A DNA stretch of 51,518 nucleotides from a virus: the IMG/VR virus record IMGVR_UViG_3300033153_005209, positions 1 through 51,518 of that record. One strand, written 5' to 3'. The notes beneath the pieces are model-generated. The model had not been told where the DNA came from. It made no database searches and saw only the letters and a program-made list of their open reading frames with translations. Shown here piece by piece: positions 17,208-39,502 of this stretch. The translations under genes were made by a program, and so were the position numbers. The first letter of the stretch is position 1, and each line of letters starts with the position of its first letter.

Positions 17208-17239
17208 CAAATCTACTGAATTATTGATACATATCAAAA
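17208..17239 (-). promoter_or_regulatory. Candidate promoter for the portal gene
   Basis: On the - strand TTTTG (17239-17235), exactly 19 bases, then TAGATTTG (17215-17208). This is the textbook spacing of a Bacteroidota promoter, overlaps the last codons of TerL, and would start transcription only a few bases before the portal start codon, giving a very short leader. Confidence 0.6.
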
Positions 17240-20200: not shown

Positions 20201-21558
20201 TCTTCAGCATATTTTTGAAGATAGTTTATTACTTCAATGTCTGTGTTACCGATTCTAGTTCTATCTGAGTCTCCATCTCCAAGCCAAAGACCTAATAAAT
20301 ATGGGGGAATAGATACTTCTTTTTTATTGAAGTGAACTATACCCGGTCTTACTAAAGAATAATTACTTTTTCTTTTTGGGTATTTTTTAATTTCATCAAT
20401 GTACTCTATAGGAGTAATTGTTTTATAGTTTGGGTTACTTCCTTTATATTGTTTTAGATGTTTTACGTGAATCTTATGTCTACTATTAACTACCTGTTCT
20501 ATACCATTTTTAGGTGTAACTCTATACATATCATCACAGCCTTTATGAGTTTCTAAAACAGTCCTAGATTCACTATCAGGACCAAGTAATTTATCCCCTA
20601 TTATTATATCCTCTACATTTTTTAAAAATCCATCAGCCATTATGATTTTGGTACCTTTAATATGACATCCTGCCTCCTCCCACACTATTAATTTACCTCG
20701 TTTACCTCTAGCTTTATCGGGATCATTCTTTAAAGTAACTCCTATAATCTCAGATTTGAATCCATATTCTCCAGCATTACCTTGTTTCTTATAGCCGGCT
20801 TTTTTATGCATTAATTGATCGATAAGAGTTAATTTCTTAGCAAATCCTACATTATTAATAACAAAAGAAAATATATCCCAAGTTTTATTTAATACACCAT
20901 CTGTAGTTAAGTACTCTGTATCAGAAGCTAAAGCAAAAGATCTACTATCTTTAAATAAGAAATAATTTCTAGCTAACATAGAGGCCGCTTTAAAAGAATA
21001 ACCTTTACCTCTGGCCTTTAGAACAGTACCGTATTTTCCAGCTTTTTCAGCTTGGTCTACATAGTGATAGAATAGATAATCCCCATCCCAGAAGTCAGGG
21101 AATCCTGCCACACGTTCTGCCCTAACTGTACCGTCTTCATTTCTTATACCGACTATCTCTGTTTTTAGAATTGGAGAATAGTTAAGATAAAAATAGTGAT
21201 ACCCTGTAATCCATTCTCCATCAGACTTTCTAACTAAACCTTCTTTACACCTTCTAATTTCTTCGTCCCAAAACTTTTTATAAGGAGAAGAAGGAGATCT
21301 AGAAGGGTAATAATTTGTATATTTACCAGTTTTCTTAAAAGTAATAGCTGCTTTTCTAAAATAATCTACATCCTCTAATATATGAGGTTTTGTAATATCT
21401 ACAATTATTTTACCTTGATTATCTCTATCTAAATCTTTAGCATAAGGTCTTTCTTTAGATACCATCCAATGTAAAAGGGGAATCACATCAAGCAATTCCC
21501 TTATCTCATTGTACAATTCTGTACTTGGCTTAGCTATTTTATCTAAATCACTAATCAT
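17221..21558 (-). CDS. terL: Terminase large subunit with two inteins
   Basis: A 1445-residue precursor. Removing residues 298-642 (intein 1) and 673-1043 (intein 2) leaves a 729-residue terminase, a normal size for this phage group. N-terminal ATPase: a Walker A-like ARGKGYSFKAAS near residues 185-195 and a Walker B strand KLIVWEEAG ending at residue 297, exactly where intein 1 is inserted. The 30-residue middle piece ends MLAFG, where intein 2 splits the coupling motif before TGGEEG. C-terminal RNase H-like nuclease: GGCDPVDDDEG, then INYENKLKGMF and a later conserved region. The packaging motor threads DNA through the portal encoded next. Start codon overlaps the end of the preceding gene. 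Confidence 0.93.
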   Translation of the reverse strand: MISDLDKIAKPSTELYNEIRELLDVIPLLHWMVSKERPYAKDLDRDNQGKIIVDITKPHILEDVDYFRKAAITFKKTGKYTNYYPSRSPSSPYKKFWDEEIRRCKEGLVRKSDGEWITGYHYFYLNYSPILKTEIVGIRNEDGTVRAERVAGFPDFWDGDYLFYHYVDQAEKAGKYGTVLKARGKGYSFKAASMLARNYFLFKDSRSFALASDTEYLTTDGVLNKTWDIFSFVINNVGFAKKLTLIDQLMHKKAGYKKQGNAGEYGFKSEIIGVTLKNDPDKARGKRGKLIVWEEAGCHIKGTKIIMADGFLKNVEDIIIGDKLLGPDSESRTVLETHKGCDDMYRVTPKNGIEQVVNSRHKIHVKHLKQYKGSNPNYKTITPIEYIDEIKKYPKRKSNYSLVRPGIVHFNKKEVSIPPYLLGLWLGDGDSDRTRIGNTDIEVINYLQKYAEEINVECQITDIKGTDCKRIYLKSSKLRQQLKELNVLNNKHIPDGYIYTDEQSRLELLAGLIDSDGSYSHRKKAMQITQHGNRKQIIDKITFIARSLGMKVSRDRRISRPRFYKGKLIRGGQIQYRVTILYGHSRIPCLIERKKSEDRKGFLKDSLSTRFDVSYYGVSDYYGFTLNKDHLFLTEDFTITHNSFPYILKSWRLAQRSLEEGSRVFGFMLAFGCVCKGTKVYKADGTSCNIENLNQSDGILGYTSEGISLEHIEGFKAPFKKKCVKLVTNTGRTIECSTDHPILWSTQHLHSSKRLRDGNSKTLDKRDLKKKVLFKPAGDIKVGEQLAVIDTVPITGTKEMWNPRLIGLLIGDGSYGKNKTPVLSNADADINKYVESNFDTVVEKSYTTKDGRLYKELRIRGITCELRNLGIYTQTKCNKTLPTNIDSFNIASIREMLGGFFDADGYVYVTTTGTVKIILTSACKNLMLETMVLLNRFGIHGIVSYVKPNLKNPKDKSGYYRLTISDVDSVITFNKNIKFKVTEKQRRLDLVFHSSSVSRRSSHLKRLRVERVLSVKDIGSQDVYNLQTAGSHTYIANGIVTHNTGGEEGVDFIGLESLFYSSKAYQVYHVNNCWDKNAENGVCAFFVPDYMDIADCYDKNGNSDVVKALVQIIERRLEVKYNSSDATDFAQVKAEGPITPQEAVMRTEGTIFPSADIKEYLTSIEPTREHFVGQHYVGKLNWSPSGHVEFKPNFTDIPIRDWPFKGKDRTGAIELFELAKCNSGEIKPPWGRYIGGCDPVDDDEGTSLFNVWIMDLFTDSIVAEYTGRMPKADSNYEIALKLAIYYNAEINYENKLKGMFSYFERMNALSYLADTPEVLKDMEYIKQKYATGNKSKGTPPTPAINSWGRRMQADWMMTKNIFDPNDKLNLHRIRSIGYLKECAQWNPDGNFDRVSGGIMLFILRASKIKYVELNKENAKNKDKMAYSSDPFFQDNPYTTSFDMYQ
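18430..19542 (-). other. Intein 2 in TerL (371 aa, LAGLIDADG endonuclease)
   Basis: Begins with Cys (CVCKGTKVYKADG), has block B ECSTDHPILWS with the T-x-x-H signature, two endonuclease motifs (RLIGLLIGDGSYG and MLGGFFDADGYV), block F VYNLQTAGSHTYIANGI and ends VTHN with Thr as first C-extein residue. All splicing residues (Cys1, block B His, penultimate His, terminal Asn, Thr+1) are present, so splicing should be active. Inserted between MLAFG and TGGEEG in the TerL coupling motif. Confidence 0.92.
19633..20667 (-). other. Intein 1 in TerL (345 aa, LAGLIDADG endonuclease)
   Basis: Begins with Cys (CHIKGTKIIMADGFLKN), followed by DIIIGDKLLGPDS, a block B with NSRHKIHV, LAGLIDADG motifs YLLGLWLGDGDS and LLAGLIDSDGSY, and ends DHLFLTEDFTITHN with Ser as first C-extein residue. 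Cys1, His-Asn and Ser+1 are intact. Block B lacks the usual Thr three residues before His (S-R-H), a mild deviation. Inserted directly after the Walker B motif WEEAG. The two inteins share little sequence outside motifs, so they look like independent insertions. Confidence 0.92.
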
Positions 21559-28770: not shown

Positions 28771-28785
28771 ACAAAGTTTAGTCGG
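28763..28785 (+). terminator. Hairpin over the stop codon of the 28588 gene, possible terminator
   Basis: CCGATTAAAC (28763-28772), loop AAA, GTTTAGTCGG (28776-28785): 10 bp with one T-G pair. The following sequence TTATAACTTTC is only weakly T-rich, so termination may be partial. Confidence 0.45.
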
Positions 28786-28871
28786 TTATAACTTTCAGTA
28801 TCATTACTGTTCAGATTAGAGTGTTCTTAGCCTAAGTGATTTCCTTGATTTCTCTAACTGTTATGAAGTAA

Positions 28872-28948
28872 AACTAGTTGTAATTATTCATAACTGTTTA
28901 AGTGTGCGACCTATTGTAACTAGTTGATTATGAGTAATAACATAATCA
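28872..28948. ncRNA. Possible structured RNA element
   Basis: AACTAGTT occurs at 28872-28879 and 28918-28925 and can pair with itself as an 8 bp closing helix. Partly overlapping it, TGATTATG (28925-28932) and CATAATCA (28941-28948) form a perfect 8 bp hairpin with loop AGTAATAA. No ORF covers this 246-base gap (28771-29017). Confidence 0.35.
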
Positions 28949-29017
28949 TATATCCAAATTCTAAGCAACTGTAAAACGAGCTAATACATAATAATATTGC
29001 TATTTAAAACATTAACT

Positions 29018-29173
29018 ATGGAAACAGATAAAGAGAAAGTATTTGCTTTATTTAATTTGAATGAAAAAGATAAACCTAGAATTTGGAGCTTATATACCAA
29101 TAAAGAAGAAGATATTAATATAGTAACAATTATGTATAGTACTAATACAGTAACTAAACTTGTTACAAACTAA
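29018..29173 (+). CDS. Small hypothetical protein (51 aa)
   Basis: METDKEKVFALFNLNEKDKP, RIWSLYTNKEEDINIVTIMY and a polar end. It has two aromatic strands and normal base composition for this zone, behind the typical leader TTAAAACATTAACT. Too short for firm assignment; function unknown. Confidence 0.45.
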   Translation: METDKEKVFALFNLNEKDKPRIWSLYTNKEEDINIVTIMYSTNTVTKLVTN

Positions 29174-29246
29174 TTATTATATCTAGTATTACAATATATT
29201 GAATGGGTTTAAAACAAATAATATAAAATTTAAAGAAACTTGAATC

Positions 29247-29444
29247 ATGAATAAACAAGAAGTAATAGATTTGATGAAAACAAGTAAGAACGGAAATGAA
29301 TGGGATCAAAATTGTGCCAAAATAAAAGCTGCTTTTGGGAATGCATATCCCGATTATTGGTATTCGGAATTTATTTCATCCGGATTAATGAATAAAATAC
29401 TTAATAACCCGGATGCTGATAAAATTACTCTTAGGACTTTTTAA
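29247..29444 (+). CDS. Small hypothetical protein (65 aa)
   Basis: MNKQEVIDLMKTSKNGNEWD, QNCAKIKAAFGNAYPDYWYS and EFISSGLMNKIL. Helical, with a tryptophan/tyrosine cluster; I recognise this type (short, N-EW-x-x-N-C motif) as recurrent among Bacteroidota and their phages, function unknown. The next small membrane ORF starts two bases after its stop. Confidence 0.55.
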   Translation: MNKQEVIDLMKTSKNGNEWDQNCAKIKAAFGNAYPDYWYSEFISSGLMNKILNNPDADKITLRTF

Positions 29445-29446
29445 TT

Positions 29447-29545
29447 ATGAAAAAGAAATACATTTGGGAATTAAGCTGGTATGTTTTAATAGCTGCTATT
29501 GTAGCAATATCTGCTTATTATTTCAACACTTGGCTATTTAATTAA
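29447..29545 (+). CDS. Single-helix membrane peptide (32 aa)
   Basis: MKKKYIWELSWYVLIAAIVA then ISAYYFNTWLFN: a basic start and one hydrophobic helix, positively charged side inside. Two bases after the previous gene, so co-translated. Tiny phage membrane peptides are common, so this is plausible though short. Confidence 0.45.
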   Translation: MKKKYIWELSWYVLIAAIVAISAYYFNTWLFN

Positions 29546-29570
29546 TAAACAATTAATAATAAGACTCTTG

Positions 29571-29620
29571 CTTGCCATTCGCTCACTGAAAGTGTCGTGA
29601 GCTCTTGCCGAGCTGGCGAG
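29571..29620. ncRNA. GC-rich branched hairpin element
   Basis: In an AT-rich zone these 50 bases are about 58% GC. CTTGCC (29571-29576) pairs with GGCGAG (29615-29620). Inside, GCTCAC (29581-29586) pairs with GTGAGC (29597-29602), and an alternative AGCTC/GAGCT helix (29600-29604 with 29610-29614) competes for the same bases. No ORF covers it. It may be an RNA switch, a small RNA or a remnant of a foreign element. Confidence 0.45.
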
Positions 29621-29726
29621 GTTTCGAAGTTAGTCATTTTTAATTAAATATATTGTAACAGTGAGTAACTATTTTTAGTGTTATAACCAGAAAGTATAAG
29701 TATTAACTAACTAATAACTTAAAATT

Positions 29727-29932
29727 ATGACAAGAAAAGAACATTTAGATTGGTGCAAAGAAAGAGCACTAAAATATGTAGATGATGGAAATTTACAACA
29801 AGCATACACTTCTATGACATCTGATTTAAGTAAACATCCTGAACAACTATTCAATTGGATATGATGTTATTAATGAGTAATCAACTGCATACAGATGCTA
29901 AAATGAGAGATTTTATTAATGGTTTTAATTAA
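29727..29932 (+). pseudogene. Conserved small phage protein split by a frameshift
   Basis: Frame one: MTRKEHLDWCKERALKYVDD, then GNLQQAYTSMTSDLSKHPEQ, ending at TGA 29862-29864. The -1 frame continues with LDMMLLMSNQLHTDAKMRDF and INGFN to TAA at 29930-29932. Together they equal a widespread phage family I recognise by the pattern M-x-R-x-EHL-x-W-x-K-x-RALEYVD...SDL-x-KHP...LGMMLLM...MR-x-FI-x-GFN, about 70 residues. So one base was lost or gained near 29845-29862, or a -1 frameshift joins the halves. No classic slippery heptamer is visible. Confidence 0.7.
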
Positions 29933-29987
29933 AACTCTGTTAGCAATTTATTGCTATTTCAGACATATTTACTAATTTTACAAAACT

Positions 29988-30461
29988 ATGAAAGAACAAT
30001 TAATTTCATTCAAGACAGCTATATTAGCTAGAGAAAAAGGGTTTGACATTCATTGTGATTGGCGATATAATGAATCTGAAAATATACCAACTTATTTTAA
30101 CTGGAGAGATTACAGAGTTGCTGAATGCACATCATGTGATAGAAGTTATGCTTATAAAGCTGTTGAGTATTTATCAGAAAATTATTATGATGTATTTAAT
30201 AATGATGATGAAGGTTTTTATCTTTCAGCTCCAACTCAGTCCCTACTTAAAAAATGGTTAAGAGATAAACATAATATTCAAATAGAGATTGAATTGAATA
30301 CAAAATATATTAAAGACATTTTAACCAATTTATATTCTTATCAAATGTATAAACCTTCTGAACAACTTAAGTTAAGTTGGAAATTTTCTGGTTGTAAGTA
30401 TTTAATTTATGAAGAAGCTTTAGAAAAAGGATTATATGAGGCACTAAAACTAATAAAATAA
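29988..30461 (+). CDS. Conserved Bacteroidota/phage hypothetical protein (157 aa)
   Basis: Begins MKEQLISFKTAILAREKGFD and contains FYLSAPTQSLLKKWLRDKHN followed by IQIEIELN, and ends with YEEALEKGLYEALKLIK. The combination ISF-x-TA-x-LA-x-EKGF, APTQSLLQ/KKWLR and EEALE-x-GL is one I know from many Bacteroidota genomes and their phages, annotated hypothetical. Likely cytoplasmic; role unknown. Confidence 0.7.
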   Translation: MKEQLISFKTAILAREKGFDIHCDWRYNESENIPTYFNWRDYRVAECTSCDRSYAYKAVEYLSENYYDVFNNDDEGFYLSAPTQSLLKKWLRDKHNIQIEIELNTKYIKDILTNLYSYQMYKPSEQLKLSWKFSGCKYLIYEEALEKGLYEALKLIK

Positions 30462-30475
30462 CTAAAACAAATATA

Positions 30476-30555
30476 GCTATTTAGAATAATATAGACAGAA
30501 TAAGTTATCGTATTATTTGAAAGGTTTATTTAAGGTTCGATTCCTTTTAATAGCA
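30476..30555 (+). ncRNA. tRNA-like element with acceptor and T arm, no normal cloverleaf
   Basis: Acceptor-type helix GCTATTT (30476-30482) with TAATAGC (30548-30554), six of seven pairs, followed by A and C. A T arm TAAGG-TTCGATT-CCTTT (30531-30547) has the conserved TTCGA loop. The middle does not make D and anticodon arms; instead AATAATA (30485-30491) pairs with TATTATT (30511-30517). It may be a decayed tRNA or a tRNA mimic, lying in the gap after the 29988 gene. Confidence 0.4.
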
Positions 30556-30560
30556 CAATG

Positions 30561-30703
30561 ATAAACTCTCATCCAATTTGCTGGTGATTAATGTTGAGTC
30601 TTTGTAACACTTAATATTATTTAGAAACATTTAGAAGAACTGTGGTTAGAATCAGTCGAATGCAATGTTTTGTTAACTTCTAGCAGGAGTTATGAGAGTT
30701 TAT
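30561..30703. ncRNA. Possible structured RNA closed by a 12 bp helix
   Basis: ATAAACTCTCAT (30561-30572) is perfectly complementary to ATGAGAGTTTAT (30692-30703). Inside, TAATGTTGAGT pairs with ACTTAATATTA (11 bp with two G-T pairs) and AACTTC pairs with GGAGTT around a TAGCA loop (30675-30691). No ORF of note lies inside. Directly follows the tRNA-like element and precedes the 30733 gene. Confidence 0.5.
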
Positions 30704-30732
30704 TTTAAAATATTAACTAAAAAGATATTATT

Positions 30733-31242
30733 ATGAAAATGAAAGAATTTGATTTAAAATTAGCTATTGCTGGACACCCTCTATGTACTAGAGAAGGTGA
30801 TATTATAGAAGATTTTTATTACTTTAAAAATATTAGGGATGCTTATCCAATATATGCTATAGTAAATAAACTTACTAATACTCACACAACTTTAGGGCAT
30901 TTTTATATAAGTAGAAAAAAAAATAGTAAAGATTTAATGCTAGATGTATCCAAACCTTGGATAAGAGAGCCTAAAATGGGTGATGTTATTGAAGTTAGTA
31001 TTGATGACAGAATTTGGTGTGAAAGAATTTTTATAAAAAAGAGATGCAAAAAAGGTGTAATATGTGTAGATTATAATTTTTCGAAATACTATCAAGAAGA
31101 TAATTCTTTTGATACTAGTTTTTGGACTAATTGGAGATGGCCAATTGAAGATAAATTAGAGATAACTGTAACAATAAATGGCAAATCTGTTAATCCTTCA
31201 GATATTTCTGAAGAAACTTGGAATAATCTGAAAAATAAATAA
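30733..31242 (+). CDS. Hypothetical protein (169 aa), Bacteroidota phage type
   Basis: MKMKEFDLKLAIAGHPLCTR opens with the FDL-x-x-A-x-AG-x-x-x-x-TR pattern that I know from many small proteins in Bacteroidota and their phages. The middle has beta-rich MGDVIEVSIDDRIWCERIFI and CKKGVICVDYNFSKYYQ with aromatic content; the end is WRWPIEDKLEITVTINGK. Function unknown. Flanked by RNA-like elements on both sides. Confidence 0.65.
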   Translation: MKMKEFDLKLAIAGHPLCTREGDIIEDFYYFKNIRDAYPIYAIVNKLTNTHTTLGHFYISRKKNSKDLMLDVSKPWIREPKMGDVIEVSIDDRIWCERIFIKKRCKKGVICVDYNFSKYYQEDNSFDTSFWTNWRWPIEDKLEITVTINGKSVNPSDISEETWNNLKNK

Positions 31243-31251
31243 TAATATCTC

Positions 31252-31339
31252 AAATCACTGAAAGTAAGGACTTGAAACTCTTATTTCTATATAAAGCTTT
31301 ATGAAATAGAAGCTCATATACGTTATAGACAGGTGATTT
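31252..31339. ncRNA. Possible structured RNA closed by a 9 bp helix
   Basis: AAATCACTG (31252-31260) pairs with CAGGTGATTT (31330-31339) with one bulged G. Inside, TATTTC and GAAATA flank the self-complementary ATAAAGCTTTAT, making a long hairpin. The element starts 10 bases after the stop of the 30733 gene. Confidence 0.45.
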
Positions 31340-31356
31340 TATTTAATTTAATAATG

Positions 31357-31513
31357 TAAAAGTATAAATGGCGAAAAATAGACGCTTAAGGAGAAGTAAA
31401 ATTCAAATATTGCACATCGATAGTAAGATAGTGCTGCCTTAGATTAGTTGTTAATTAAGTGGCCATAAATTAACGATCTAAATGTTGTAATGGAACTCAA
31501 CTTTATACTTTTA
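31357..31513. ncRNA. Possible multibranch structured RNA closed by a 12 bp helix
   Basis: TAAAAGTATAAA (31357-31368) is perfectly complementary to TTTATACTTTTA (31502-31513). Inside are GCG/CGC near 31371-31385, TAAGG/CCTTA enclosing GCAC/GTGC, and a 9 bp helix TTGTTAATT/AATTAACGA flanked by AGAT/ATCT. The nested, non-crossing arrangement is what a branched RNA would give. The only ORF inside is a 24-codon one starting at 31369. Confidence 0.5.
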
Positions 31514-31595
31514 TTAATAATCTATGCCTATTCGCTGATACTACAAAGGACTATAGGTCCAGGATAAAGAGAGAGTTAAAACTGGATAGACTTAA
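31514..31595. ncRNA. Possible small structured RNA
   Basis: TCTATGCC (31521-31528) pairs with GGATAGA (31584-31590) with one bulged G, extended by TTAA (31514-31517) with TTAA (31592-31595). Inside, GGAC-TATAG-GTCC (31548-31560) forms a hairpin. It abuts the previous element, so the two may belong to one transcript. Confidence 0.4.
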
Positions 31596-31892
31596 TTTAT
31601 TTTAATACAATGTGTTTTTTCAATTTGACCGAACGAAATTGACTCCACAGGATAGGGATGAAAGCCTGATTAATATTACTTCTTGAAGAATACACGAGAT
31701 ACAATCTGTGCAAGTCAGATGAGTAATTGATATGGATGATATAAATCATATTCTAGTAATTTAAATAATATGCTTGCGGCTTAGTTGCGAGCGATTAGTT
31801 AAAGCTACGATGGTAACGTTACAACCAATTACATTTTAGTGCAAAATAGTAATCTATTTGGTCTACATTAGTAGGTTTAGGTCTATAAATAT
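31596..31892. other. Non-coding stretch with several strong hairpins
   Basis: No ORF. Visible helices: TCAATTT/AAATTGA (31620-31642, 9-base loop); GCTTGC/GCGAGC (31772-31792); ATTACATTTT paired with AAAAT-A-GTAAT (31828-31853, 10 bp with one bulge, AGTGC loop). ATTACT/AGTAAT and ATGAT-ATAA-ATCAT lie between. It probably continues the structured RNA zone and supplies the upstream region of the 31929 gene. Confidence 0.45.
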
Positions 31893-31900
31893 TATATTTG
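31893..31900 (+). promoter_or_regulatory. Candidate -7 box (TATATTTG) for the 31929 gene
   Basis: Exact TAnnTTTG match 29 bases before the ATG at 31929. It argues that this ATG, not the one at 31905, is the start, because transcription would begin about 31907. The -33 position is weak (TTTAG). Confidence 0.45.
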
Positions 31901-31928
31901 TAAGATGCTCAAACTAAAATTATATAAA

Positions 31929-32096
31929 ATGAAAGAATTTAAAAAAGGAGATAAAGTACTTATTATGGGAGGCCCTGCAGAGGAAGTAACGATTACTGAA
32001 GTATTCGAGACTTCAGTCTTAACTACATTTGGTGGTATACGTATATCAAAAAAATCTTTAAGAACAAAAGATGGTAATGATTGGACTATTAAATAG
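31929..32096 (+). CDS. Small hypothetical protein (55 aa)
   Basis: MKEFKKGDKVLIMGGPAEEV, then TITEVFETSVLTTFGGIRIS: a compact KOW/SH3-like beta barrel pattern (KKGDKVLI..G...E..I). Stop is TAG, with the next in-frame TAA 13 codons later. Start selected by promoter position. Function unknown; KOW-like barrels often bind RNA or ribosome. Confidence 0.55.
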   Translation: MKEFKKGDKVLIMGGPAEEVTITEVFETSVLTTFGGIRISKKSLRTKDGNDWTIK

Positions 32097-32171
32097 ATAA
32101 TTTTAGTTTCCCTGAAGATAGCATCAAAGGGGTAAATATTAAAAAGAAACATAACTAATAAACTATACATT

Positions 32172-32777
32172 ATGAAAAAGAAATTTAAACTAGTTATGCT
32201 TTCTAGTGAAAAAGCAGATTTATGGTCATATAAAGGTAGAAGATTATATTATAATCAAGCTAATTTTAATGATGAAGATAGTACTATTTATTATCATCTT
32301 TACATCACATCAAATGAAAAGATAAAAGAAGATGATTGGCACATTAATGCTTTGGGGGAAATAGCTCAATTTATTAAAGGTACTACTATAAGAAGTGATT
32401 ATCCTAAAATTATAGCATCAACAGACAAAGCTCTTAACTTACCAACTATTCCTAAATCTTATATTGAATATTTTATTGAAGAATGGAATAAGAGTAATAA
32501 AATAGAAGAAATTGAGTTAGAAATGGAAGAAGATTTTGATTTAATTGGTAATGAAGCAATAAGTTTAGGGGTAGAGTTAAAACTTCAAAATAACGAAGTT
32601 GTCCCTGTATATAAATTAGACAGTCCAATTTGGAATATGAATATTTCTAATAGTAATAATCAAATAATGTACTCTGAAAAAGAGATTAGAAAATTATTAT
32701 TAAAATTAAGCCAAGATATATGCAATTATGGCCAGTATTTAACTTTAGACCAATGGTTTGAACAAAATAAAAAGTAA
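32172..32777 (+). CDS. Conserved phage hypothetical protein (201 aa)
   Basis: N-terminal beta-rich domain (FKLVMLSSEKADLWSYKGRR), then KEDDWHINALGEIAQFIKGT and YPKIIASTDKALNLPTIPKS, a pattern (KIIASTDKAL...LP.IP.S-x-I) I recognise from numerous hypothetical proteins in Bacteroidota and their phages. The C-terminal 30 residues are helical with EKEIRKLLLKLSQDICNYGQ and a final TLDQWFEQN. No catalytic site visible. Function unknown. Confidence 0.65.
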   Translation: MKKKFKLVMLSSEKADLWSYKGRRLYYNQANFNDEDSTIYYHLYITSNEKIKEDDWHINALGEIAQFIKGTTIRSDYPKIIASTDKALNLPTIPKSYIEYFIEEWNKSNKIEEIELEMEEDFDLIGNEAISLGVELKLQNNEVVPVYKLDSPIWNMNISNSNNQIMYSEKEIRKLLLKLSQDICNYGQYLTLDQWFEQNKK

Positions 32778-33273
32778 TTATAACGTAATTTATACATCCA
32801 GACCAATGATGTAAAACTTATCTTATATAATTTAAGTAACTATGGCTAGAGTAAATATCGAAGTAGGAAAGATTAGCTACCTACCTTAAGGAAATTAAGA
32901 GATAGATACAACCTAGATGGTATAGGGTTGTCACACACTATTCGGAGTTACCAGCACAAAGTATAGAGGTACATCCTTATCCGATTGATTTACAAAGACG
33001 GATAGCTTTGCAATAGAGATAGTAAGGTAATGACTACCTTTGTATTTAACTACATAAAACAGTCCTATCATATTGTGACCCTAAGTAATTAGGGTGCTAA
33101 AATATAATTCAGATATAGTAACTACTTTTACTACTAGAAATTGATATCAATAGTTGTAGCTATTTAACATCAATTGTTTGAATTTTTAACCTCACCATCG
33201 CTTATTAAGGCATGGTCACAGTTGAAAACGAGGTGTGTAAGTTAGCTGTTGAGACTTACAATTTTAAATAACT
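32778..33273. other. Non-coding stretch with many hairpins
   Basis: No convincing ORF (a 15-codon one starts at 32842). Helices seen: ACAACC/GGTTGT (32908-32931), TATCCG/CGGATA (32978-33004), AAGGTA/TACCTT (33024-33040), ACCCTAA-GTAA-TTAGGGT (33078-33095, 7 bp with a GNRA loop), ACCTC/GAGGT (33189-33234) enclosing ACCAT/ATGGT, and TGTAAGT/ACTTACA (33236-33260, 7 bp). These lie one after another like domains of a large RNA leading into the Leu-like tRNA. Confidence 0.45.
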
Positions 33274-33373
33274 GAATAGATGGCGGAATGGTAGACGCTA
33301 ACGTCTGAGAGATAGAAAAAGAAAGTTATAATAGTTACGCTTTTTCATGTGGGTTCGAATCCTACTCTGTTCA
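33274..33373 (+). tRNA. Leu-like tRNA with long variable arm and abnormal anticodon stem
   Basis: Acceptor GAATAGA pairs with TCTGTTC (33366-33372) at all seven positions (one T-G), discriminator A. D arm TGGCGGAATGGTAGACGC is typical of tRNA-Leu. T arm GTGGG-TTCGAAT-CCTAC is good. The variable region has a 7 bp helix GAAAAAG/CTTTTTC with an 18-base loop, longer than usual. The anticodon loop position reads CTGAGAG, which would give GAG (Leu), but its stem (AACGT against ATAGA) pairs at only two positions. It may be decayed, or folded differently. Confidence 0.55.
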
Positions 33374-33590
33374 CAATTAAATAAATAGTAAGAATATTTA
33401 GCTTTTTACTATTTATAAAGTCTTAGTAACATGTAATCTTACTAAGCATGGGCATAGCACTTGTGTCTTGGAAACTATAGAGGGGTATTAATAAGTTAGT
33501 CACCTATTGAGGAGTACAAATATAGCCCGTTTAAGTGTTGTATTCTTTAGGGTGCATTTTAATAATTATTAATTAAATTACTATTGAGCT
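33374..33590. other. Non-coding stretch with an 8 bp hairpin
   Basis: No ORF. CTTAGTAA (33422-33429) and TTACTAAG (33439-33446) form a perfect 8 bp stem with a nine-base loop. The remainder up to 33590 shows no strong structure and leads to the A/T-rich leader of the next gene. Confidence 0.4.
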
Positions 33591-33806
33591 ATGGCGATAA
33601 ATAGAAAGACCACTAGGGGTCGTAAAAAACAAGTTATTTATTCAGAACCACGTAAGATATTCGTGAAGAAGTATTTAAGTCCTAAAGGATTGAAATTACT
33701 TGCAACAAATCAATTTTCTAAAGAAGAAATTTGGGAGAGGTACGGTAAGAATAAATATGTTATTAATACTGAAGCTGTACCAGTAAGAATTATTTATCAT
33801 AATTAA
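33591..33806 (+). CDS. Small basic protein (71 aa)
   Basis: MAINRKTTRGRKKQVIYSEP, RKIFVKKYLSPKGLKLLATN and later FSKEEIWERYGKNKYVI. Highly basic at the start, then a predicted short helical domain (SKEEIWERYGKN). It could bind nucleic acid or the ribosome; nothing specific is recognised. It is followed by a 11-base gap to the next zinc-knuckle gene. Confidence 0.55.
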   Translation: MAINRKTTRGRKKQVIYSEPRKIFVKKYLSPKGLKLLATNQFSKEEIWERYGKNKYVINTEAVPVRIIYHN

Positions 33807-33817
33807 AAGAAATTGAT

Positions 33818-33994
33818 ATGTCTAAAGTAGCTACAACACCTACAAAAAAAGGAAAGGAAGCTGAATGTAAGATATGCATACATTTCTGGAAAAGAGACGA
33901 AATATTTGCAATATGTACTCATCCTGTATACAAAAAATCGCATAAACGAAAAATAGTTAATTTTGATATATGTGATTTATACGAAAAACAATGA
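33818..33994 (+). CDS. Small Cys-containing protein (58 aa)
   Basis: MSKVATTPTKKGKEAECKIC, IHFWKRDEIFAICTHPVYKK, then FDICDLYEKQ. Four cysteines with one or two histidines (C-x-x-C-x-H and C-x-H, then C) suggest a zinc site. Basic at both sides of the knuckle. Stop TGA. Not recognised further. Confidence 0.5.
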   Translation: MSKVATTPTKKGKEAECKICIHFWKRDEIFAICTHPVYKKSHKRKIVNFDICDLYEKQ

Positions 33995-34191
33995 TAAAAG
34001 AAACTAGTCCTAATTAGACTGAAGCAGTGGGTAGCCTATGTGTGAAGCGGTCAGTAAAAGAAGAAGTTCCCTAATTAGGTAATAGAGATTCCATAAAACA
34101 ACCGAGTCTTTGGGTGCGTAAGACGTTAAAAATCTCCATTGGGGTCTTTATTTTTAAGCTACTAATTAAGCTAGTTTATTATGAACAGCCA
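33995..34191. other. Non-coding stretch
   Basis: No ORF. ACTGA and TCAGT near 34020-34060 and GAGATT/AATCTC around 34085-34140 could pair, but these are short. Little else is evident. Confidence 0.3.
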
Positions 34192-34256
34192 CACTAGTTG
34201 AATTACTGTATAAATATAAATCCGTACAGTGTAAGAGGATTAATATTCAATTAGTG
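34192..34256. ncRNA. Possible pseudoknotted RNA closed by a 12 bp helix
   Basis: CACTAGTTGAAT (34192-34203) pairs with ATTCAATTAGTG (34245-34256), 12 bp with one G-T. Inside, ACTGTA (34205-34210) pairs with TACAGT (34225-34230), and AATCC in its loop (34219-34223) is complementary to GGATT after it (34237-34241): the layout of an H-type pseudoknot. No ORF covers it. Confidence 0.5.
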
Positions 34257-34496
34257 CAAAGAGCAGAGCAATAGAAGTTAGTGAGACCATAAATCTCTGA
34301 TGGCTTAGAAGAAGCTAATTTCAGTTTAAATTAAAAACTTATGAAGAAATAAGATTTTAATTATTTTTTAAAAGGGTGAATAAGAAACGAGAATTATTCT
34401 TTACATAAAATGAACAAGACTGCTGGCAAAGCCGATAAATACCTTCTCAGGTGGTGCAGAATTATGATCCACAATGTTTTATGACCTTTTTTATAT
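34257..34496. other. Non-coding stretch with degraded coding-like starts
   Basis: No ORF longer than 24 codons (one starts at 34409). ATGAAGAAATAA at 34341-34352 looks like a gene start that stops at once. GTGG/CCAC around 34452-34473 can pair. It leads into the tRNA-like element at 34497. Confidence 0.3.
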
Positions 34497-34579
34497 ACCT
34501 CAATGAAGGAACTTGATGTGAAATACATCCTAGAGATAGTCTAATAAGGAAAGTCCAAGTTCGATTCTTGGTGGAGGTA
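34497..34579 (+). ncRNA. tRNA-like element with acceptor and T arm
   Basis: ACCTCAA (34497-34503) pairs with TGGAGGT (34572-34578) at six of seven positions, discriminator A. A strong T arm CCAAG-TTCGATT-CTTGG (34555-34571) precedes it. The 51 bases between hold a hairpin GATGT-GAAAT-ACATC and a TAGA/TCTA hairpin rather than D and anticodon arms of normal size. It could be a decayed tRNA or a mimic; compare the element at 30476. Confidence 0.4.
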
Positions 34580-34659
34580 CTAGCACTATTTAATTAGTAA
34601 TTAATTTGTTAATAACAGTTTACTAGGAGTGAATATAGTTAAATAGTGCTTTTTTATTC

Positions 34660-34672
34660 TTTAATCTTTAAA
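34660..34672 (+). repeat. TTTAATCTTTAAA leader motif, copy 2
   Basis: Exact copy, with TTC in front as in copy 1 (16 identical bases), 10 bases before the ATG at 34683. Confidence 0.55.
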
Positions 34673-34682
34673 ATTTAATAGT

Positions 34683-34805
34683 ATGAAAGCGATTAAACAA
34701 AAATTGGAAATGTATACTTTTATAAGTATACCATTTATTGTAGTAGGTAGTGTATTAATTTATAATGCTCTACAATATGGTAGTATAGCTTATATTGGTT
34801 TTTAA
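34683..34805 (+). CDS. Single-helix membrane peptide (40 aa)
   Basis: MKAIKQKLEMYTFISIPFIV then VGSVLIYNALQYGSIAYIGF. A basic amphipathic start followed by one membrane helix. It carries the TTTAATCTTTAAA leader, supporting expression. The stop TAA lies inside the next copy of the motif, 16 bases before the next ATG. Function unknown. Confidence 0.5.
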   Translation: MKAIKQKLEMYTFISIPFIVVGSVLIYNALQYGSIAYIGF

Positions 34806-34813
34806 TCTTTAAA
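34801..34813 (+). repeat. TTTAATCTTTAAA leader motif, copy 3
   Basis: Exact copy overlapping the stop of the preceding small gene and 10 bases before the ATG at 34824. Confidence 0.55.
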
Positions 34814-34823
34814 TCTTTATTTT

Positions 34824-34964
34824 ATGAAAACATTTGTAATATCTTACATTCTAAAATCAGGTGCGATAATATTAAATGATGTTATTGAAGCCAAGTCCAG
34901 ACTAGAAGCTATTAATTCTATAGATAATAGATTAATAGTACTTTCATGTGCTGAGGCTAAATAA
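34824..34964 (+). CDS. Small hypothetical protein (46 aa)
   Basis: MKTFVISYILKSGAIILNDV, then IEAKSRLEAINSIDNRLIVL. The strand-helix-strand pattern (SYILKSG..I...VIEAKSRLEAINS) is one I associate with short proteins common in Bacteroidota phages. Preceded by the conserved leader motif. Function unknown. Confidence 0.5.
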   Translation: MKTFVISYILKSGAIILNDVIEAKSRLEAINSIDNRLIVLSCAEAK

Positions 34965-35007
34965 GTTGAGCTGTGCTGTAATCACCCTCAACAATTTACT
35001 TATTTAA

Positions 35008-35054
35008 AAATGTAGCCAATATACATTGCTAATTTGCAATTTTTGGCTACATTT
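35008..35054. ncRNA. Perfect 12 bp hairpin in the 34824-35080 gap
   Basis: AAATGTAGCCAA (35008-35019) is perfectly complementary to TTGGCTACATTT (35043-35054), with an inner ATTGC/GCAAT stem (35024-35028, 35036-35040). A preceding GTTGAG/CTCAAC hairpin lies at 34965-34992. The 3' arm contains TACATTTG, a promoter match. It may act as a terminator for the gene before or a regulatory RNA. Confidence 0.55.
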
Positions 35055-35055
35055 G
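35026..35055 (+). promoter_or_regulatory. Candidate promoter (TTG-N19-TACATTTG) for the 35080 gene
   Basis: TTG (35026-35028), 19 bases, TACATTTG (35048-35055). Expected start point about 35062, 18 bases before the ATG. It overlaps the 3' arm of the strong hairpin, so formation of the hairpin in upstream transcripts would not interfere but a DNA cruciform might. Confidence 0.5.
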
Positions 35056-35079
35056 TCTAAACTTTAAACTTATAAACTT

Positions 35080-35373
35080 ATGGAATGGTATGTGATTATA
35101 ATAATAGTTTTAGTTATATTGACTGTAATAACTGTTCTTTTATTTAATATACTAAAAGATGTAACAAGAAATCTTAAAATATATAGGACAATTGCTACTG
35201 GTAATAAAATTAGAACTCTATCTATTGAATTAAAAGCATATTCAGCATTAAAAAGTAATACTAAGAATGTTGATACTCAAGCTGAAATTCAAGTTGAAAT
35301 AGACTATACAATAAACCAGATTAAAACTTTAGAAAATAGATACAGAAAACAGTTTCCAATAAAACCTCTCTGA
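35080..35373 (+). CDS. Membrane-anchored coiled-coil protein (97 aa)
   Basis: MEWYVIIIIVLVILTVITVL is a single membrane helix at the N-terminus with the charged tail inside. The rest is a helical, charged stretch (LKIYRTIATGNKIRTLSIEL; QVEIDYTINQIKTLENRYRK). Length and layout fit small phage inner-membrane proteins, for example superinfection exclusion factors, but no family is recognised. Ends in TGA inside a 6 bp hairpin (35366-35384). Confidence 0.6.
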   Translation: MEWYVIIIIVLVILTVITVLLFNILKDVTRNLKIYRTIATGNKIRTLSIELKAYSALKSNTKNVDTQAEIQVEIDYTINQIKTLENRYRKQFPIKPL

Positions 35374-35397
35374 TGTCTAGAGAGTGGAGGAATAAAT

Positions 35398-35469
35398 GGA
35401 GAGATAGCTGAGTTGGCTTAGCATCAGAGTGAAGTTCTGGGGACGAAGGTTCGAATCCTTCTTTCTCCA
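35398..35469 (+). tRNA. tRNA-Phe (GAA)
   Basis: Acceptor GGAGAGA/TTTCTCC (7 pairs, one G-T), D arm GCTG...TAGC, anticodon stem TCAGA/TCTGG with loop GTGAAGT giving anticodon GAA, T arm GAAGG-TTCGAAT-CCTTC, discriminator A. No encoded CCA (A then CGAA). The first tRNA with a completely normal cloverleaf in the window. Confidence 0.95.
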
Positions 35470-35724
35470 CGAAACGGCCTTAGTCATGATAATGACACGT
35501 ATTCTAGTAATGTAGGCATACATTCCAGCAGCAAGAGGCAGTAGGGCTGGTACTTTAAGTCTGATAGGAGTAACTATAATGAGGTTTGTCAAATCTCATC
35601 AAAAACTCAGACATGATAAAAAGATGTACAAAGCTCGGTACAGTAGGGATAGCCTAAACCTAATTAATTGATGTTTCAGCCTTGGGTTAAGTCTTTTAAT
35701 TAGGTAGGTTAGAGCTGCATTTAT
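35470..35724. other. Non-coding spacer with several hairpins between the two tRNAs
   Basis: GTCAT-GATA-ATGAC (35483-35496), AATGTA-GGCA-TACATT (35509-35524, 6 bp), CCAGC/GCTGG (35525-35550), ATGAGGTTT-GTC-AAATCTCAT (35579-35599, 9 bp with one G-T), and AGCTC/GAGCT (35632-35716) enclosing CCTAATTAA/TTAATTAGG (35659-35704). No ORF on the + strand. tRNA processing or an additional structured RNA are both possible. Confidence 0.45.
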
Positions 35725-35799
35725 GGGTCAGTAGCTCAATTGGCTAGAGCACTTGATTTGCATTCAAGGGGTTGTGGGTTCGATACCCACCTGTATCCA
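35725..35799 (+). tRNA. tRNA-Ala (TGC)
   Basis: Acceptor GGGTCAG against CTG-T-ATCC with one bulged T; the third pair is G-T, the alanine identity element. D arm GCTC/GAGC, anticodon stem CTTGA/TCAAG with loop TTTGCAT giving TGC, T arm GTGGG-TTCGATA-CCCAC, discriminator A. The bulge in the 3' acceptor strand is unusual. CCA is not encoded. Confidence 0.88.
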
Positions 35800-36020
35800 C
35801 TTAATCTACTATTAATGAGTTCTTGTAATAAATGTTTAGCAAGATAGAAACATACCTGTTAGCCAGGGAATAGTAGATTTTAATACAACATAAAGCTTAT
35901 AAAGCAATCTGATGAAGTTTAAACATATATGAGTGTTGAAAAAAACAACTGTAAAATCCTTTAGGAATTCAGTAAGTATAATCATATGTTAAGTGATAGT
36001 TTAATACTTCATTATAAATT

Positions 36021-36131
36021 ATTGAATTTTTATAATGGGAAAGTTGCCCAAGTCCAGGAGCTTTGATGTATCAGACACCTACCCAGTGCATAGCTGATAA
36101 TCGAGAGAGACATTTGCGATGAAAATTCAAT
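36021..36131. ncRNA. Possible structured RNA closed by a 10 bp helix
   Basis: ATTGAATTTT (36021-36030) is complementary to AAAATTCAAT (36122-36131). Inside, GGG/CCC (36037-36049) and TATCAG/CTGATA (36069-36099) with an inner CAC/GTG stem. No ORF; the element lies between tRNA-Ala and the next small gene. Confidence 0.45.
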
Positions 36132-36179
36132 TTATTTATGCCTTGACAAGGCAGATTGTTTTATTTTAAACTATAAATT

Positions 36180-36278
36180 ATGAATGACAAACAAGTAGGA
36201 AGATTAATACGCTGGATTATAAATGGTATAATAATTTGTTGTATTGTTATAATTCTGGCTTGGTTAAATAAATTTTAA
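36180..36278 (+). CDS. Single-helix membrane peptide (32 aa)
   Basis: MNDKQVGRLIRWIINGIIIC then CIVIILAWLNKF: a positively charged N-terminus and one hydrophobic helix. Reasonable leader TTTTAAACTATAAATT before the ATG. As with the other tiny membrane peptides in this zone, coding status is likely but unproven. Confidence 0.4.
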   Translation: MNDKQVGRLIRWIINGIIICCIVIILAWLNKF

Positions 36279-36606
36279 ATAGTCACACCGTTTTAGACTT
36301 TAGGTCAGTGGTGATAATATTGTAATAACAGGGTGAAAGGAAAGAGTATGTGAATCACATAACCACCTCCATTTGTTATTATAGGCAGCGGAAGTACAAT
36401 TGTATGGGCTAGGCTTGTTAGAAATTCTAGATTCCTTAAAAATCAAGATGTGCCCTAAGAGTCCCCGTCTTCAAATATGAAAGTATTTGTCGTATAGTTA
36501 TATTAACAAATTTCCTGCTCACGGGTATTTTTTTTTACGAAAAGTGAGATATAGCTAATTGTGCGTCCCATTTTATTAATACGAATGGGTAATATTAAAT
36601 TTAAAT
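36279..36606. other. Non-coding stretch with structured RNA character
   Basis: TAATAACA (36323-36330) pairs with TGTTATTA (36374-36381), enclosing ATGTG-AAT-CACAT (36348-36360). CAAATA/TATTTG (36472-36489) forms another hairpin. No ORF. It separates the peptide gene from the DnaA-like gene. Confidence 0.4.
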
Positions 36607-37110
36607 ATGGAAAAAACATATATTACAACAGGAAAACACCCATTTATGTTACCTCAAAAGACTTTATGGGCTATTAACGATCCTATACCGGGTTATAGAA
36701 TTTGGTATACTGTACACAATATAGTATTATATTATGATTTTAGCTTAAATATGATTAAAATGTGGCTTAAACATAATTTTATATTAGCTACTAACGACAC
36801 TGTTGCTATTAAGGATTCTCCAATATCAGATATTATAGCTGCTGTATGTTCCATAACTGGATTATCAATATCTAAAATAATGGAGAATACTGCTAAACGA
36901 AAGGCTGTTCAAGCTAGGCAACTGATAATGTATTATTCTAAAATTATCACTTCTTTATCTTCAGCAAGAATAGGAATAGCAATACGACCATCCAATCCAC
37001 TTAATTCATCTACTGTGGTACATGGTAAAAAGACTATTAATAATTTAAAAACTAATAATAAGGAAATAGCTGCTTATGTAGCTAAATTAGATAAAATCTT
37101 TAATCTTTAA
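36607..37110 (+). CDS. DnaA domain IV-like protein (DnaA C-terminal domain homologue)
   Basis: A 167-residue protein. The C-terminal half aligns with the DnaA DNA-binding domain: SDIIAAVCSITGLSISKIME, then AKRKAVQARQLIMYYSKIIT (the RR-x-x-VAxxRQ-x-x-MYL helix), SSARIGIAIRPSNPLNSSTV and VHGKKTINNLKTN (matching GxxFGGRDHTTVLHAxxKI). So it has the helix-turn-helix and basic loop but no ATPase domain. It could bind DnaA-box-like sites in phage or host DNA, as an initiator helper or host-initiation antagonist. The N-terminal 70 residues are unrelated. Ends within the fourth leader repeat. Confidence 0.75.
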   Translation: MEKTYITTGKHPFMLPQKTLWAINDPIPGYRIWYTVHNIVLYYDFSLNMIKMWLKHNFILATNDTVAIKDSPISDIIAAVCSITGLSISKIMENTAKRKAVQARQLIMYYSKIITSLSSARIGIAIRPSNPLNSSTVVHGKKTINNLKTNNKEIAAYVAKLDKIFNL

Positions 37111-37871: not shown

Positions 37872-37970
37872 ATGTATATGATAATATTTGTTATAGCCAT
37901 AATAATTCTATATTATGGCTTTGGAATATCTGGTAAAGATACTTCACCTAAATGGGAGGATTTAAAATGA
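37872..37970 (+). CDS. Single-helix membrane peptide (32 aa)
   Basis: MYMIIFVIAIIILYYGFGIS then GKDTSPKWEDLK. Two bases after the previous gene and overlapping the next start by ATGA, so it looks translated within a coupled trio. The last codons include the GGGAGGA ribosome site of the next gene. Confidence 0.45.
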   Translation: MYMIIFVIAIIILYYGFGISGKDTSPKWEDLK

Positions 37971-39502
37971 GTGGAGATTTAGATTTAATAGTTGGAAAAG
38001 TTTATTACACAAATGATGCTTATCCTTGGATTATTAGAATTAAATATATAGAGCCTTATAATAGACTAGCTTTATTTAGCTATATAAAATTACCTAGCAG
38101 TACTAGCGCTCCAAGATTTTCTTCTAAAGCATGTGTAATAAATTACGTAGATACATTTATAGAAGCTACAAAAGAGCAAATACAATGGTTAGAGACTTGT
38201 GAGAAAGCTGATGAATTTGTTTCAAAAGAAGAAGTCTGTAAACAACAAGAGTTTGTATTGCCTGAAAAATGGTGCATATTTCCTAAAGAGGAAGAGTTTA
38301 AAGTAGTAATTAAATGGTCGCAAGAAAAACAACCTGGGTATTATGTGGGTAAGTATAATTGGCATAATAAAGTAAGTTTTGATTATAATGGAATGTATAG
38401 AGAATATGAGGATATTCAAATAACTTTTGAACAATTTAAAAAATATGTTTTAAAAGAAGTTTATACAAGTCCTATTAACCAAGAAGATTTATGTGTATTT
38501 TGCGGTAAAAATATAGAAAAAACTTTAAATCCTCAAAATCCTGTATGTGAAGGGTCTTATTGTGAAGAAGCAAAAGCATTGTTTAATGATTCTAAAGAAT
38601 GGTGGGAAGATTTAAAGAAAGGTGATTATGCTGTTTGTATACTTGAGGAGTCTTATTCTTTCTCTAAAAATTATATATTTAAGCTTAGAGAATCTACTGA
38701 TAATCGTAGTTATAATAATTATGCTGCAATTAGACCTGAATTAGATTGTAAAGGTTCTGTTACTAATGGATATTCTGCTAAAAATTTTAGATTGGCAACT
38801 CCAGAAGAAATTAAACTTTACGAACATGCTGGTAAGCCGGTTGATGTAACTACTTATAAAATAACTGTAAAAGACATGGAATATGTAAAAGTTAAGTTTG
38901 AAAAGGAGGGAGCTAATTATAATAATTTTAAAGGTGAAACATTACCTTATTACTTTAGAAAGTTAAAAGAACCTGTTATTAAAGTAATTTCAACAAATTC
39001 TGATGTAGTATATGGTTTTATTGGAAATGAGAAAGTATGCTTTCACAAAAATGCTGTATCTCCTTCTACTAAAGAAGCTTATGAAGTTCAATTTAATACT
39101 ATTGAAGCAATTTCTAAACTTGACAAAGATGGTAATCCTATGGTTATAGGTGCATTATACACTATTCATGCCCAAATATGTTATTATTGTGGAATTAATG
39201 AGTATGGATCTGATACATTCGAATTTACAAATTATAAAGCTGCAGTAGATGTAGAATTGCCTAAAAACTGGGTATCGAAAGGTAATAATACTTATTGGTT
39301 TTTAGATACTAAAGAAGTAGTAAAATCTGAATGTATAATTACTGTTATAGGAGGAGGTATTACTGTTTTAAAAGAAGAAGCTGTAATAGAATCTCCAGAT
39401 ACTTTAAAACCTATTAGCATTTTAGAACCCACAAACAAAATCAATATACAAATAAATAAACCTTCCGATGCCATAGAATTTTCTAAAATTAAACTTTTAT
39501 AA
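37967..39502 (+). CDS. Large modular hypothetical protein with zinc knuckle (511 aa)
   Basis: Start at 37967 (MSGDLDLIVGKVYYTNDAYP), six bases after a GGGAGGA ribosome site; an upstream in-frame start is less likely because it sits in the preceding peptide. Module repeats have the form SxxFRLATPEEIKLYEHAGK plus ATKEQIQWLE, suggesting fused domains. Near residue 180 LCVFCGKNIEKTL and NPVCEGSYCEEAK hold four cysteines, a zinc knuckle. The C-terminal part (YCGINEYGSDTFEF) has one more cysteine pair. I do not recognise the whole. It probably gathers several copies of small domains found as separate hypothetical proteins in relatives. Confidence 0.6.
   Translation: MSGDLDLIVGKVYYTNDAYPWIIRIKYIEPYNRLALFSYIKLPSSTSAPRFSSKACVINYVDTFIEATKEQIQWLETCEKADEFVSKEEVCKQQEFVLPEKWCIFPKEEEFKVVIKWSQEKQPGYYVGKYNWHNKVSFDYNGMYREYEDIQITFEQFKKYVLKEVYTSPINQEDLCVFCGKNIEKTLNPQNPVCEGSYCEEAKALFNDSKEWWEDLKKGDYAVCILEESYSFSKNYIFKLRESTDNRSYNNYAAIRPELDCKGSVTNGYSAKNFRLATPEEIKLYEHAGKPVDVTTYKITVKDMEYVKVKFEKEGANYNNFKGETLPYYFRKLKEPVIKVISTNSDVVYGFIGNEKVCFHKNAVSPSTKEAYEVQFNTIEAISKLDKDGNPMVIGALYTIHAQICYYCGINEYGSDTFEFTNYKAAVDVELPKNWVSKGNNTYWFLDTKEVVKSECIITVIGGGITVLKEEAVIESPDTLKPISILEPTNKINIQINKPSDAIEFSKIKLL

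Follow-up and report, generated by a model that had tools for sequence, protein, structure and literature searches.

What fills the long gaps between the small genes in the middle of this viral genome? The window analysed here, an IMG/VR virus record of 51.5 kb (51,518 nt), has a zone at 28771-36606 in which such gaps repeatedly carry closing helices around nested hairpins. The capsid protein matches PHROG 11589 (E 1e-117), marking the window as a Crassvirales fragment; its best match among phage records is Cellulophaga phage phi14:2 (46%, Steigviridae), and identity to cr111_1 and cr108_1 is 43-44%. Judged from this related major capsid protein and the position of the hub, the phage is a Steigviridae-like member of the Crassvirales, related to crAssphage of the gut. 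The Crassvirales rank among the gut's most abundant phages.

The structural gene block runs leftward and the replication block rightward, and the zone lies between them as a tRNA-bearing hub, as in Steigviridae-like phages. The hubs of crAss001 (NC_049977) and cr111_1 (NC_055880) occupy the same site between gene blocks, with tRNAs in one direction and small genes interspersed. Unlike those arrays, which hold 23-26 annotated tRNAs, the window hub contains two canonical tRNAs and mostly unnamed closed elements (Table 1). ORF 36607-37110, directly after element M, carries a DnaA C-terminal domain, and an origin may be nearby; protein searches with 36607-37110 and 37952-39502 found zero relatives among viral contigs. 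Elsewhere in the window, a terminase large subunit ORF at 17221-21558 (minus strand, 1445 aa) has two stretches (about 298-556 and 673-1044) of intein and homing-endonuclease domains, which probably represent two inteins, and a tRNA-Ser that ARAGORN reports at 2819-2911 (minus strand), within a 1351-aa ORF, is probably a false positive.

Table 1. Features of the hub zone, in window coordinates.
Feature	Position	Strand	Evidence
Hub zone	28771-36606	+	gene orientation; same place as crAss001/cr111_1 tRNA arrays; helix excess
T1, tRNA-like	30474-30556	+	6-7 bp acceptor, TTCGATT T-arm, non-canonical core; T-arm scan
Element A, 12-bp closing helix, nested hairpins	30561-30703	+	both arms in G025 (L145 8042-8157)
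Closed element, 8-bp helix	31252-31338	+	fold; no homologue found
Element B, 12-bp closing helix	31357-31513	+	inverted repeat, fold; no homologue found
Element K, hairpin GACCCU..AGGGUGCUAAAA	33057-33104	+	80% to G003, one compensatory pair
Element L, two hairpins and outer ACCUC/GAGGU helix	33178-33263	+	79% to G025 (L145 8620-8689)
T2, tRNA-Leu(GAG)-like	33274-33374	+	25-nt insertion after position 38; Rfam tRNA 36.7 bits; ARAGORN intron mode
Hairpin, 11 bp, terminator-like	33381-33416	+	7 nt after T2
Closed element J, 9 bp	34009-34079	+	inverted repeat, fold; no homologue found
Conserved stretch just upstream of C	34155-34194	+	90% to G011 (L146 6751-6787)
Closed element C	34191-34257	+	fold z -4.7; homologue of helix not found
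T3, aberrant tRNA	34497-34580	+	3' half resembles tRNA-Lys; T-arm scan
Element D, 12-bp helix	34582-34650	+	directly after T3, then T-run
Hairpin E, 12 bp, terminator-like	35008-35054	+	z -5.4; symmetric on both strands
tRNA-Phe(GAA)	35398-35470	+	ARAGORN and Rfam
tRNA-Ala(UGC)	35725-35799	+	ARAGORN and Rfam
Element G, 11-bp closing helix, two inner arms	35803-35879	+	homologue in G004 (L021 13985-13910, minus)
Closed element I, 10 bp	36021-36131	+	inverted repeat; no homologue found
Element M, about 300 nt, several hairpins	36275-36606	+	conserved in G025 (L145 8700-9006)

The earlier note had proposed that these gaps hold more long helices than chance allows, and the excess stands. All four closing helices that it named are present on inspection: those of A and B are perfect over 12 bp, that of I has 10 bp, and the fold at 34192-34256 gives a long helix containing one G-U pair. 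Its count of three 12-bp pairs, two of them perfect, was low, as D and hairpin E raise the number of perfect 12-bp pairs to four. Across the 4,356 nt of zone gaps, perfect inverted repeats of at least 10, 11 and 12 bp number 9, 7 and 4, against 1.05, 0.28 and 0.05 expected from 200 dinucleotide shuffles of these gaps. None of the 200 shuffles reached the observed counts, and the helix density thus survives the control that the note itself had suggested. The non-coding gaps in the left 28 kb of the window contain no such inverted repeats.

The helix excess is found again in the hubs of several relatives, not all of them. Counting long-range repeats only (span of at least 45), the window zone has 9 against 1.56 expected, G025 8 against 1.84, G011 13 against 1.88 and G003 3 against 0.48; further hubs give 13 against 4.2 (L147), 8 against 2.3 (L151) and 13 against 3.8 (L152). 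The excess is weak in L150, L153 and L154, and L148, L149 and L156 show no such repeats or no clear excess. It resides in the closing helices, because fixed-window folding energies across the zone are mostly shuffle-like, with uninformative z-scores, and A, B and I, once reduced to their interiors, show ordinary stability (z -0.2 to +0.2). The elements fold better on the plus strand, which is the strand of the tRNAs and genes, and base composition may contribute to this preference. Some other helices look like terminators, those at 33381, 34582 and 35008 having T-rich sequence behind them or short loops; the remaining helices are unproven or terminator-like.

Comparison with related phages identifies the elements that recur. 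A capsid-alignment search gave 80 IMG/VR records, and hub matches came from G025 (71% capsid identity) and G011 (67%); a capsid search of bacterial genome contigs yielded three relatives, more distant. Alignments of A, L and M to G025 score 44-65 against a shuffled maximum of 37; G has a homologue in G004 and K one in G003 (score 46, with shuffles reaching 34 at most). In G025 the interior of A has diverged; its closing helix, being identical in both aligned genomes, shows conservation and no covariation. A longer form of K occurs in phi14:2, and one about 75% identical in phi4:1, a phage of another group. Among the four closing helices that the earlier note named, only that of A has a homologue, and none was found for those at 31357, 34192 and 36021. 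In the relatives searched, the helices of B, C, I and J have no homologue, which may reflect the scarcity of close relatives.

Other searches returned little. When the zone was compared with phage records at the nucleotide level, every match listed was to tRNA-Ala; nucleotide searches with L and M gave no match, and G gave short weak matches only. A pattern search for L found G025 only, and a model of the G core run on 44 records found G004 only. One pattern-search match for G, in L035, was rejected as chance in a GC-rich coding region, leaving G004 as the only true match. The TTTAAAATAT linker, considered as a promoter, has one site in the window.

Pairing in the homologues argues for conserved RNA folds. 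With two genomes per family and registers set by hand, every one of the 54 helix positions counted across G, L and M pairs in the relative, 20 of them with substitutions at both bases; such two-sided changes with pairing kept account for 9 of 21 counted pairs in G, 7 of 15 in L and 4 of 18 in M, and K adds one. The closing helix of G is AATCTACTATT in the window and a different, 10-bp helix, ACCTCACTGT, in G004; both are perfect and stand in the same place, with the G-P1 register shifted by one base. Two G-P2 positions are unpaired in the window. When the 3' letters of the relative were permuted, a mean of 6.0-9.2 pairs formed, and none of the 20,000 trials run for each family reached the observed pairing; the number of both-changed pairs has a P of 0.00025 for G, 0.0013 for L and 0.018 for M. 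A two-sequence shuffle test of the G core is weak (60/500), and structures slid out of register lose their pairing. Covariation in homologues was the check that the earlier note had set for itself, and compensatory changes appear in G, L, M and K. By these comparisons, the four elements probably are structured non-coding RNAs with a conserved fold, each in two genomes.

The tRNAs and tRNA-like elements reported earlier in the zone were confirmed by ARAGORN, Rfam and a T-arm scan as two canonical tRNAs and three aberrant tRNA-like genes. The scan for a T-arm plus acceptor finds five TTCGA T-arms, all on the plus strand, and adds T1 and T3. An acceptor stem and T-arm are present in T1, T2 and T3; canonical D and anticodon arms are not found in them, and ARAGORN in default mode misses all three. 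No D-stem is apparent in the fold of T1, T2 is read by ARAGORN solely with a 25-nt intron, and T3 matches a crAss001 tRNA-Lys at its 3' end, with 87% identity over 39 columns. An inverted repeat of at least 11 bp lies within 10 nt of the 3' end in four of the five T-arm genes, compared with 1.9% of gap positions; an inverted repeat right after the tRNA 3' end is not general in other phages. Two readings of these genes were rejected: T1 as a tmRNA remnant, since shuffles cover its alignment score of 33 and Rfam gives it no tmRNA match, and a likeness between the T2 insertion and the beginning of ORF 32172, since a 19-mer of this likeness also occurs in two other contigs and chance in AT-rich DNA is likely.

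Named RNA families do not account for the zone. Among Rfam 15 covariance models, including GOLLD, ROOL, Pistol and tmRNA, only tRNA reaches the gathering score, and at E<=10 the zone gives tRNAs and chance matches, nothing convincing. Neither Rfam nor ARAGORN finds a tmRNA or Pistol ribozyme in the window, whereas both occur in relatives' hubs. The G025 hub holds a permuted tmRNA (RF04321, L145 6546-6935, 52 bits) and a Pistol ribozyme (L145 11425-11479, 55 bits), the G004 hub a Pistol ribozyme (L021 14397-14456, minus strand) and a DUF805b RNA, and ARAGORN reports tmRNAs in the hubs of two further relatives. Additionally, phi14:2 has a tmRNA unannotated in its record (L031 4031-4502; 46 bits, gathering score 47, E 6e-16). 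Over 5.8 kb, the G011 hub matches no Rfam family at E<=0.5; it contains many closed elements, several in tandem with 10-14 bp closing helices (L146 7092-7829). An unnamed structured element of 171-191 nt, absent from the window, is common to G025 (L145 9450-9636), G011 (L146 8098-8268) and G003 (L019 14489-14679). In another relative, ARAGORN reports a tRNA with anticodon TTA (ochre suppressor) at L148 4438-4509 (minus strand).

The nearest likenesses lie in other phages. GOLLD and ROOL are phage non-coding RNAs of unknown function often found near tRNA islands (PMC12286853); they share that setting with the window elements but have no Rfam link to them, and GOLLD members can exceed 800 nt, whereas the window elements span about 50-300 nt. 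Staphylococcal phage K expresses two abundant lncRNAs, likened to GOLLD and ROOL (PMC9241854). They too are non-tRNA RNAs placed relative to phage tRNA genes, but phage K has two RNAs of measured transcription and the window many predicted elements, likened to them by placement. No description of the window elements was found in the open-access literature.

The zone is thus a real non-coding RNA island, in which no fewer than five structured elements, unnamed and of several families, recur in relatives. The earlier note was right to suspect structured RNAs without a name: in a hub with a helix excess, five elements recur, four of them with compensatory pairing, and no Rfam family fits. Its notion of a single family gives way to several unrelated ones, which stand among tRNAs, tRNA-like genes of aberrant form and hairpins that resemble terminators. 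At a probability of roughly 60%, we read the zone as a tRNA and non-coding RNA hub whose independently folding RNAs, of several unnamed families, would be excised and act in trans. Transcription would run rightward through the hub, and processing would free the elements as small, stable RNAs whose 10-12 bp closing helices mark the boundaries for nucleases. Leader-trailer helices bound rRNA precursors for nucleases and serve as the model for these proposed boundaries. Once released, the elements would work in trans while the phage takes over its host. Translation is the most plausible field for this action, since the members known from such hubs are tRNAs and tmRNAs. Excision and trans action are favoured by the differing neighbours of the homologues, the one shared strand and the known stable RNAs alongside (tRNAs, tmRNA, permuted tmRNA and Pistol). 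Most likely, the majority of the elements are excised from a rightward transcript, persist as stable RNAs and work in trans, where transcription and function are what we infer. Covariation drawn from two genomes per family (and, for G-P1, from a hand-set, shifted register), ordinary interiors, terminator-like helices, the position of K and the want of homologues for B, C and I speak against this reading.

Alternatively, the closed structures may act in cis, as terminators, attenuators, processing sites or leaders for the interleaved small genes; this is unlikely, though several features suit it. Element D is followed by a T-run and E is a short-loop 12-bp hairpin, K sits shortly before start codons in both G003 and phi4:1, as suits a leader, and M ends at the start codon of ORF 36607. 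However, homologues precede different genes, or none, depending on the genome: L and M are adjacent in G025 and 3 kb apart in the window, with different neighbouring genes and order, an arrangement more easily squared with independent modules than with leaders tied to one gene. Many elements also enclose 60-150 nt, unlike terminators.

It is improbable that the elements and aberrant tRNAs are functionless remnants of a decaying tRNA array. T1-T3 do retain acceptor and T-arm without the canonical core, and the gaps between tRNAs in crAss001 and in further hubs, which fall either below about 15 nt or beyond about 50 nt, often measure some 70-90 nt, the size of a tRNA. Gaps in annotated arrays hide tRNA-like genes that ARAGORN misses (L032 4132-4301, L154 9975-10087, L154 9560-9740, L033 35990-36137), some with odd cores or long inserts, but a plausible anticodon arm survives in some of the hub tRNAs that look aberrant. 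Moreover, G, K, L and M lack a T-arm and keep their pairing by compensatory change, which is not expected of decay; for G, L and M, covariation as aligned here already contradicts this explanation.

An explanation at the level of DNA, for instance a replication origin or inverted-repeat sites of recombination, is very improbable: the zone divides two gene blocks, a common origin site, beside the ORF with the DnaA domain, but the repeats differ in sequence among elements and are scattered over 8 kb among tRNAs, and the three one-sided helix changes all give G-U pairs on the plus strand, few but RNA-like. Chance helices in AT-rich DNA, which the near-shuffled folding energies might suggest, are the least credible account given the shuffle counts, the replicated excess and the compensatory changes, and are contradicted for A, G, K, L and M, while lone helices without such support, I or J for example, may yet be due to chance.

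Crassvirales hubs might be modular cassettes of many unnamed trans-acting RNAs, gained and lost like tRNA genes, that reprogram the host in translation or defence, and in which the closed elements and the aberrant tRNAs would be functional components, not relics; we offer this tentatively, at less than even odds. In the examined records, the annotation of these hubs consists of tRNAs and small genes, with unannotated gaps between. Should the gaps hold conserved structured RNAs, they would represent an overlooked layer of phage biology, one directly testable in isolates, namely crAss001 on Bacteroides intestinalis and phi14:2 on Cellulophaga baltica.
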